From: Paucidesulfovibrio gracilis DSM 16080
Lineage (GTDB): Bacteria > Desulfobacterota > Desulfovibrionia > Desulfovibrionales > Desulfovibrionaceae
Assembly (NCBI RefSeq): GCF_900167125.1
Contig: NZ_FUYC01000002.1
Coordinates: forward strand, 248,001 to 312,000
Length of the DNA: 64,000 bases
Direction: 5' to 3'
Below, in pieces: positions 53,018 through 55,114 of the stretch (positions are counted from its first letter, which is position 1; each line of letters opens with the position of its first letter). The position numbers and the translations under genes are program-made. The notes beneath the pieces were generated by a model, which saw only the letters and a list, made by a program, of their open reading frames with translations, was not told where the DNA came from and made no database searches.

Positions 53018-53081
53018 GTTCGGCATGCTTTTTCTCGGCGCAAAAAAGTGGCTTGACGGCGTGTCGGAAGGGATGTAAACA

Positions 53082-53177
53082 GTGTTCATGTCAGACTACA
53101 TCCTTGGCCTTGGTGCCTTTTTCTTTTTCTTCTTTTTCTTTTTTATCCTCGCTCGCGGCAAGGAGGGGACGGTCTGA
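53082..53177 (+). CDS. 31-codon poly-phenylalanine leader peptide or mini membrane peptide
   Basis: A GTG at 53082 with GGAAGGGA eight bases upstream (or an ATG at 53088) opens a frame ending at TGA 53175-53177. It encodes a Tyr-Ile-Leu-Gly-Leu-Gly-Ala stretch, then nine Phe codons in a row (53118-53144; five TTT and four TTC), then ILARGKEGTV. The next feature is a strong terminator 25 nt after the stop, and the symporter operon follows. This matches the plan of an amino-acid attenuator leader such as pheL. A single-helix membrane peptide with a Phe-rich core is the main alternative. Confidence 0.5.
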   Translation: MFMSDYILGLGAFFFFFFFFFILARGKEGTV

Positions 53178-53202
53178 CGCACTGACAACGACAATGACTG
53201 AA

Positions 53203-53242
53203 ACCGGGGCCGCGGGCGCAAGCTGGCGGTCCCGGTTTTTTT
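53203..53242 (+). terminator. strong intrinsic terminator ahead of the symporter operon (attenuator candidate)
   Basis: ACCGGGGCCGC (53203-53213) pairs along 11 positions, one of them G-U, with GCGGTCCCGGT (53226-53236), followed by seven T (53236-53242). Its left arm overlaps GCCGCGGG (53209-53216), which could instead pair with CTCGCGGC (53152-53159) in the leader frame as an antiterminator. Confidence 0.85.
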
Positions 53243-53288
53243 ATGGCCGCACAGCTGGTTCAGGCTCCTCAACAGAGGGGGAAAGCGG

Positions 53289-53519
53289 ATGATGCTGGGA
53301 CTCGGAAGCGTGGAAATAGCACTGGCCTTCTGGCTGGTAATTCTCTGCGCGGCAGTGTGTGTGGTGTATGGGGCGTTGCATTGGAATCATGGAGACGAAT
53401 GCGATGCCGTGGATCCGGAGCGGAAAGCACAGAGCGGGGCAGACCAGGAGGCGTTGTCGGCGGGGCATGCCGTGGATGCTTCTTCCGCCGCTGGTTGCTG
53501 TGAGGAGGCTGCCTCATGA
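53289..53519 (+). CDS. small membrane accessory protein of the symporter
   Basis: A 76-residue protein with one N-terminal TM helix (IALAFWLVILCAAVCVVYGAL), then a polar, acidic, Ala- and Cys-containing tail (GCCEEAAS at the end). GAGGGGG precedes the ATG. It overlaps the symporter start as ATGA, so the two are translated together. Short one-helix proteins starting MLGLGS... are common ahead of such symporters and are thought to be accessory subunits. The long hydrophilic tail here is less usual. Confidence 0.7.
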   Translation: MMLGLGSVEIALAFWLVILCAAVCVVYGALHWNHGDECDAVDPERKAQSGADQEALSAGHAVDASSAAGCCEEAAS

Positions 53520-55114
53520 TTACCAAGATTCTCGTCTGCGTCGTATATTTTTCCGTGGTGTTTTATCTGGGATACAAAGGCTGGAAAACAACCCGCGAGG
53601 CCTCGGACTATATGCTGGCCGGGCGGCGGATGCATCCGTTCGTCATGGCCATGAGTTACGGTGCCACCTTTATTTCCACATCCGCTATCATCGGATTCGG
53701 CGGGGCCGCCGGGCTGTTTGGATTTTCCCTGCTCTGGCTTACCGTGGCCAACGTCTTCATCGGCGTGTTTCTGGCCATGACGGTGTTTGGCAAGCGCACC
53801 CGCCGCATGGGGCTTTGTTTGAACTGCCACACCTTCCCGGAATTGTTGGGCCGACGGTATGATTCCTCCTTCATTCAGGGATTTTCCGGGCTGATCATCT
53901 TTTTGTTTATCCCTGTGTATGCCGCGGCAGTGCTTATCGGCATTTCCCGTATGCTCGAGGTCTCGTTGAATATCCCCTATGATTGGGCCTTGGTGGGCAT
54001 GACGCTTATCCTGGCGCTTTACGTCGTCACGGGCGGGCTTAAAGCCGTCATGTACACGGATGCGTTTCAGGGAACCATCATGCTGGTCATGATGGCGGTG
54101 CTTTTGATCTTTACCTATACAGCTCTGGGAGGCGTCACCCAGGCGCACCAAACCCTGACGGACATGGCCGCCATGATGCCGGAAAAGCTCCAAAAGGGTG
54201 GCATGATCGGCTGGACCCAGGGAGCGCAGTTCGGCTCTCCGCTTTGGCTGGTCATCTATACCACGATCATTTACGGAGTCGGCATCGGTGTGCTTGCCCA
54301 GCCGCAACTGGCCGTGCGGTTCATGACCGTTCGCAGCGACAAGCAGCTCAACCGGGCCGTGCTCTTCGGCGGAATTTTCATCCCAATGATGACCGGGGTG
54401 GCCTTTATCGTGGGCGCGTTGTCCAATGCCGTGTTCACGGCGCGGGGCGGGGAGCTGTCCATCGTGGAGGCGGGCGGCAACATGGACAAGATCATCCCTG
54501 CCTATATTGAGCAGGTCATGCCGGATTGGTTTGCGGGGTTATTCCTGCTCGGCATGTTCGCGGCGGCCATGTCCACGCTGAGTTCCCAATACCATGTGGG
54601 GGGGACATCCTTGGGACGTGACGTCATCGAACACGGCTTGTTCCGGCGCAATGTGGGTACGGCCCGGGCCTCGCGCATCGGGGTGAGCGTGACCATTCTC
54701 GCCACGCTGGTCTGGGCCTGGGTGCTGCCCGGGTCCGTCATTGCCAGGGCCACAGCCTTTTTCTTCGGTCTGTGTGCGGCGTCGTTCCTGCCGATCTATT
54801 TGTTGGGGCTGTATTGGAAGGGCATGACAAAGGCCGGAGCCAAGGTCGCTATGCTGGGCGGATTCGGTGTTTCCATGCTCTGGCTTTTGTTCGTGCATGA
54901 AAAGGAAGCCGCGGCCATCGGGTTGTGTCGGTGGCTGACGGGGCAGTCCACCCTGGCGGCCTGGGCTGAACCCGGTTCCTGGGTCTGGCTGTTGCAGTGG
55001 GTGGATCCGAATGTCGTGGCCCTGCCGGTCGGTTTCTTGCTGGCCGTGGCAGTGAGCCTGGGAACGCAACCGTTGCGAACGGAACATTTGCAACGGTGCT
55101 GGGCAAACTTCTGA
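53516..55114 (+). CDS. sodium/solute symporter (SSS family)
   Basis: A 532-residue membrane protein with about 13 TM helices. Family signatures include ASDYMLAGRRMHPFVMAMSYGATFIS near residue 30, GGLKAVMYTDAFQGTIMLV near residue 180, and the region LFLLGMFAAAMSTLSSQYHVGGTSL that lines the sodium site. It should import an organic solute with sodium; the substrate (acetate, proline, pantothenate, other) cannot be read from the sequence. If the poly-Phe leader upstream is a real attenuator, an aromatic amino acid or a related compound becomes a candidate. Confidence 0.88.
   Translation: MITKILVCVVYFSVVFYLGYKGWKTTREASDYMLAGRRMHPFVMAMSYGATFISTSAIIGFGGAAGLFGFSLLWLTVANVFIGVFLAMTVFGKRTRRMGLCLNCHTFPELLGRRYDSSFIQGFSGLIIFLFIPVYAAAVLIGISRMLEVSLNIPYDWALVGMTLILALYVVTGGLKAVMYTDAFQGTIMLVMMAVLLIFTYTALGGVTQAHQTLTDMAAMMPEKLQKGGMIGWTQGAQFGSPLWLVIYTTIIYGVGIGVLAQPQLAVRFMTVRSDKQLNRAVLFGGIFIPMMTGVAFIVGALSNAVFTARGGELSIVEAGGNMDKIIPAYIEQVMPDWFAGLFLLGMFAAAMSTLSSQYHVGGTSLGRDVIEHGLFRRNVGTARASRIGVSVTILATLVWAWVLPGSVIARATAFFFGLCAASFLPIYLLGLYWKGMTKAGAKVAMLGGFGVSMLWLLFVHEKEAAAIGLCRWLTGQSTLAAWAEPGSWVWLLQWVDPNVVALPVGFLLAVAVSLGTQPLRTEHLQRCWANF

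Follow-up and report, generated by a model that had tools for sequence, protein, structure and literature searches.

The question raised by this locus is whether an operon for an SSS-family sodium/solute symporter is controlled by the supply of phenylalanine through its own leader RNA. The locus lies in a window of 64,000 nt on contig NZ_FUYC01000002.1 of Paucidesulfovibrio gracilis DSM 16080 (genome 3.18 Mb). A preliminary description had reported nine Phe codons, a stop and a terminator ahead of the operon, and all are present (53118–53144, 53175–53177 and 53201–53242). On the sequence evidence set out below, the site is very probably a transcription attenuator, mediated by the ribosome, that senses how far tRNA-Phe is charged. 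This reading is firm for the sensing and the target and weak for the off state. The original idea of a Phe attenuator for a symporter operon thus stands with its leader, Phe codons, terminator and antiterminator, but loses its GTG start and a proposed stem between the Phe tract and a purine run.

The leader in P. gracilis

The features of the locus are as follows.

53053–53081, plus strand: predicted promoter (TTGACG at 53053–53058, 17-nt spacer, TAAACA at 53076–53081)
53088–53177, plus strand: leader peptide frame MSDYILGLGAFFFFFFFFFILARGKEGTV, ATG at 53088, stop TGA at 53175–53177, predicted leaderless
53118–53144, plus strand: sensor of nine Phe codons, read from the sequence
53150–53159, plus strand: arm 2, the antiterminator left arm, within the leader frame; pairs with arm 3
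53201–53242, plus strand: intrinsic terminator formed by arms 3 and 4; seven T at 53236–53242
53209–53218, plus strand: arm-2-binding portion of arm 3, shared with the terminator left arm
53289–53519, plus strand: symporter small accessory protein NF045580, 76 aa (48.7 bits, cut-off 35)
53516–55114, plus strand: SSS-family sodium/solute symporter, 532 aa (TIGR00813, 194.3 bits, cut-off 184)

The first gene of the operon is therefore the NF045580 accessory micropeptide, which precedes the symporter. The terminator is predicted to form 13 bp, one G.G mismatch and 3 further bp (−32.5 kcal/mol), and none of 200 shuffles equalled the fold of 53060–53250. An alternative pairing of the left terminator arm with the leader, proposed in the preliminary description, was recovered in slightly longer form as 10 bp between 53150–53159 and 53209–53218. 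The further stem suggested between the Phe tract and the purine run is absent from the predicted fold, where the region around arm 2 pairs with sequence 5′ of the Phe run. Rfam gave no family at gathering score over the leader (best sub-threshold E 0.068); at that score, the whole 64-kb stretch yields five tRNAs and nothing else.

The leader had been thought to start at GTG 53082. We set this codon aside: the −10-like element ends at 53081, and ATG 53088 fits better and is probably the start codon. GTG 53082 would remain untranscribed, because the promoter spacing predicts that transcription starts at ATG 53088. The same spacing recurs among relatives. The best TTGACA-like hexamer, counted where at least five of six positions match, lies 35–40 nt 5′ of the leader ATG in 96 of 98 distinct upstream stretches, and 35–38 nt in 92; such hexamers occupy 23 of the 4312 other positions of these stretches. 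The exceptions are L065, where the first-listed best hexamer is elsewhere, and L012, which has none. An SD-like motif was found in 10 of 98 leaders. From the promoter spacing, we predict that the leader mRNA is leaderless, with its 5′ end at the ATG. A generic promoter scan did not list the P. gracilis leader promoter at 53053–53081.

Conservation of the leader and its two pairings

We searched the order Desulfovibrionales for the symporter and found it in 71 of 348 genomes at E 1e-150 or better. A Phe-rich leader with a terminator precedes at least one symporter copy in 58 of the 71, no leader was recognised in 11, and two were not judgeable because the contig or the match ends; this split was assigned by hand and totalled by script. 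The 58 include L015 (a Phe/Tyr leader), L037 and L048, which lie outside both the alignment and the set of 101 modelled leaders described below. Fifty-nine symporter leaders were drawn from 90 upstream entries, with the frame at L063 discarded as spurious and L027 (no upstream DNA) and L018 (same contig as L004) excluded. Removal of three identical leaders gave alignment A1, of 56.

The preliminary description would have been undermined by relatives that keep the terminator and lose the Phe run or the frame. The opposite was seen: frame, Phe run and terminator are all kept in the genus, whose two other genomes carry the leaders MKSATARHNSFSFFFFFIFIHACGLAEAV and MKTTQLGHNFFSFFFFFIFTLACGLEGTV with the terminator retained, and across the order the same check gave the 58 of 71 genomes above. 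The closest named relative by symporter is a Desulfovibrio sp. genome (90% identity). Many symporter leaders resemble PheL, an example being MNTNQNRFSFFFFFSFRFFRSACGLGVCV. Where symporters occur in tandem, the leader stands before the first copy only in seven genomes (G022, G221, G223 and G225–G228) and before each copy in G222. A scan of five named loci outside this group, in genera further away (L022, L025, L026, L028 and L029, from two Dethiosulfatarculus, Desulfocarbo, Desulfarculus and one unclassified bacterium), found no Phe leader.

All 59 symporter leaders have a segment near the end of the sensor run that pairs with the terminator left arm. The location of this antiterminator arm 5′ of the leader stop, flagged at the outset as odd geometry, thus recurs across the leader family. 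In P. gracilis, the terminator is more stable than the arm 2–arm 3 pairing by 7.6 kcal/mol; in other leaders, the pairing is about equal to the terminator or stronger. Comparison of relatives in the 56-leader alignment favours both pairings. For the antiterminator, 89.9% of cells in A1 are paired, against 34–42% when the pairing is slid by 1–3 columns, and both-sided changes occur at 5 of 13 pairs. Three of five measures are clear in the shuffle control (0, 3 and 0 of 500), and two are unclear, namely further pair types (197 of 500) and the covariation score (43 of 500). For the terminator, the corresponding figures are 86.4% paired and both-sided changes at 9 of 14 pairs.

One alignment position bears on both structures. 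Column 181 makes no standard pair inside the terminator in 30 of 56 leaders and pairs with arm 2 in 54 of 56 (52 U–A, one U–G and one C–G). The C–G pair is that of P. gracilis, C53154 with G53214, which is compensatory for U–A; in the P. gracilis terminator, G53214 lies opposite G53225 and is unpaired. Since column 181 pairs with arm 2 and often not within the terminator, the alignment suggests selection for a match between arm 3 and the leader, including where the terminator does not benefit. Counter-examples are L010 and L075, which have a mismatch in the antiterminator core at the column 181 site. At 97 of 101 sites, no more than 5 of 100 shuffled leader tails equalled the observed duplex, and at the other four more than 5 did; for the P. 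gracilis duplex, the number was 3 of 100. On prediction and comparison, the conserved antiterminator pairing would exclude the terminator.

A proposed kinetic model for attenuation

We modelled the position of the ribosome on 101 leaders (95 distinct frames), comprising the 59 symporter leaders and 42 aromatic-pathway leaders. In the model, transcription had reached the terminator loop, and RNA could pair from 15 nt beyond the first base of the P site onwards. In 101 of 101 leaders, there is at least one sensor codon at which a waiting ribosome is predicted to allow an arm 2–arm 3 helix of roughly 8 expected pairs or more. For P. gracilis, the expected number of pairs is 11 at each of the first eight Phe codons and 8 at the ninth, compared with 7.3 without a ribosome. 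With the ribosome at the stop codon, the value is zero by construction, as arm 2 lies upstream and RNA behind the ribosome is left out. When the upstream RNA was left free to pair, the helix fell below half of its stalled value at the stop in 16 of 101 leaders, and the P. gracilis leader showed no such fall. The share of arm-2 bases under a ribosome at the stop has a median of 40% and is nil in 16 of 101 leaders. At equilibrium, the full-length RNA prefers the terminator even when the ribosome is stalled (0.97 for P. gracilis, mean above 0.5 in 92 of 101 leaders), so antitermination and read-through must be kinetic.

We propose the following scheme. Transcription would begin at or adjacent to the leader ATG, as the promoter spacing suggests, and a ribosome would load straight onto the 5′ end. 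When phenylalanine is short, the ribosome would stall in the Phe run and leave the downstream arm 2 free to pair with arm 3 before arm 4 is made; this helix would let the polymerase read into the accessory-protein and symporter genes. With ample phenylalanine, the ribosome would continue across arm 2 in the direction of the stop during synthesis of arms 3 and 4. Arm 2 would then be unwound, covered in part or left behind by the ribosome, and the terminator could form, ending transcription at about 53242. Comparison among relatives supports the predicted frame, the sensor codons, the terminator, the arm 2–arm 3 pairing and the promoter spacing. We infer the stalling, the termination in cells, the start site and, most of all, how the Phe-replete state works.

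The nearest known counterpart is the pheL-type leader of enterobacterial pheA, the classical phenylalanine attenuator. The symporter leader shares with it a leader peptide with a run of Phe codons and alternative antiterminator and terminator pairings. In contrast to pheL, it controls a transporter operon, has a predicted leaderless start and carries its antiterminator arm inside the leader frame, whereas the arm of the E. coli pheL type lies 3′ of the leader stop. Among the papers listed by our literature search, whose coverage excludes most subscription papers, none describes a Phe attenuator before a symporter. A precedent for an attenuator RNA that begins at the leader ATG comes from Sinorhizobium meliloti trpL, whose attenuator RNA, according to PMC7298713, starts with the trpL ATG and may act as a leaderless mRNA; it differs in its Trp codons and its trpE(G) target. 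The present leaders are candidates for studying leaderless translation that is tied to attenuation.

A shared scaffold and the cargo of the transporter

A covariance model built from the 56 symporter leaders gave three strong matches in the P. gracilis genome (E 2.5e-19, 3.1e-11 and 1.7e-10; the next was 0.54). These are the symporter leader and two others, MTTRIRTNFFFVFFFFTAFRGLGVTL and MNSHKDLGVFASFYFWYWFTRVSGHGRVVA, each of which stands before its own ADH-synthase gene. The ADH synthase behind MNSHKDLGVFASFYFWYWFTRVSGHGRVVA is followed by a 3-dehydroquinate synthase II-like frame that is truncated where the locus ends (348 bits, cut-off 508). The two additional sites are as follows.

G000:C7, 5144–5283 (L100): scaffold attenuator before ADH synthase of the alternative aromatic pathway
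G000:C1, 272845–273000, minus strand (L101): scaffold attenuator before ADH synthase of the alternative aromatic pathway

One of the two has a Phe-only sensor and the other a Phe/Tyr/Trp sensor. Scaffold copies in a single genome thus differ in their sensor codons and offer a natural series for studying how specificity depends on the sensor codons. Across the order, 315 of 348 genomes contain a match (E 0.01 or better) to the model, which describes a scaffold without an Rfam match. From these, we inspected the symporter sites and 40 others, hand-picked and spread over genera. Every one of these 40 has an F/W/Y-rich leader and an ADH-synthase homologue in the locus. The sensor codons follow the controlled target: the runs of the 59 symporter leaders contain 440 F, 15 Y and no W, and those of the ADH-synthase leaders 213 F, 82 Y and 36 W, the latter being a mixture of Phe-only and Phe/Tyr/Trp leaders.

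The biosynthetic side of this distribution is not new in kind, because an attenuator predicted ahead of a Desulfovibrio vulgaris aromatic supraoperon (aroA'-aroB'-pheA-aroF-tyrA-trp) is already in print, listed as putative in the gene table of PMC1173090 (Table 7). As far as that entry goes, it has the same kind of target as the ADH-synthase scaffold, and it probably belongs to the same RNA family; the passages of PMC1173090 that we consulted mention neither a symporter nor Phe-only sensing.

The control of the symporter bears on what it carries, and is most simply read as that of an importer of phenylalanine or of a phenylalanine precursor. If the attenuator reading holds, RNA control links the SSS symporter and its small accessory protein to phenylalanine and makes a direct assay possible. 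We tentatively extend this to a broader picture, to which we give slightly less than an even chance: the SSS subunit and the NF045580 micropeptide may form a dedicated phenylalanine importer in many Desulfovibrionales, within a small RNA-only aromatic regulon. Copies of one leaderless scaffold would have come to stand ahead of both synthesis and uptake genes, and a change of sensor codons (to Phe only or to Phe/Tyr/Trp) would determine what each copy senses. In the off state, the antiterminator arm would lie behind or under the terminating ribosome and not 3′ of the stop.

The cargo could well be something other than phenylalanine, and we give this alternative substantial weight, albeit short of an even chance. 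It keeps the attenuation mechanism and changes the substrate, to an aryl acid or intermediate that is converted to phenylalanine, or to an unrelated solute useful under phenylalanine shortage. The symporter falls far under the cut-offs of families with known substrates (PutP, 183.7 against 515.5; PanF, 180 against 328), and the nearest solved chains are sugar and vitamin transporters, which is in keeping with a different cargo, although all are too distant to name a substrate. The SSS family also includes phenylacetate carriers. Six neighbouring frames at five symporter loci gave no metabolic hint (two DusB-like under the cut-off, one ABC-permease-like and three without a family). Against a cargo other than phenylalanine, the Phe-specific sensing of the symporter leaders fits phenylalanine itself most simply.

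Two further explanations would do away with attenuation altogether. The short frame might encode a functional small membrane protein with a Phe-rich transmembrane helix, the terminator ending its own transcript; the P. gracilis peptide, taken alone, does look like one transmembrane segment with R and K behind it, and the gene after the leader is a recognised micropeptide. We regard this as improbable, since the Phe run of relatives is broken by residues that include R, S, G and N, the peptide varies elsewhere, the leader tail is constrained to pair with arm 3, and the same scaffold has F/W/Y leaders before biosynthesis genes. That an ordinary terminator merely follows a T-rich frame by chance is scarcely credible: a generic terminator scan around the locus did find sites at about chance level (6, against 4.3 in shuffles), but the frame, Phe codons, pairing and promoter spacing all recur in relatives and already contradict this explanation.

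The scaffold extends beyond the Desulfovibrionales. Among 395 genomes sampled from the phylum, 41 match the model at 1e-5 or better, and 25 of the 41 belong to other orders. Inspection by eye of 15 regions in 14 of the outside-order genomes gave 13 aromatic-rich leaders, one Leu-rich leader and one that is neither; the downstream genes at these sites were likewise named by eye. The leader that is neither (L185, G389:C68) has two Trp and one Phe and stands before an apparent membrane protein. The Leu-rich leader (L197, G647:C38) has a similar scaffold and precedes a 2-isopropylmalate synthase-like gene. At two sites (L188 in G399 and L192 in G619), Phe/Tyr leaders stand before a metallo-beta-lactamase-fold hydrolase-like gene, an unexpected target for an aromatic attenuator.
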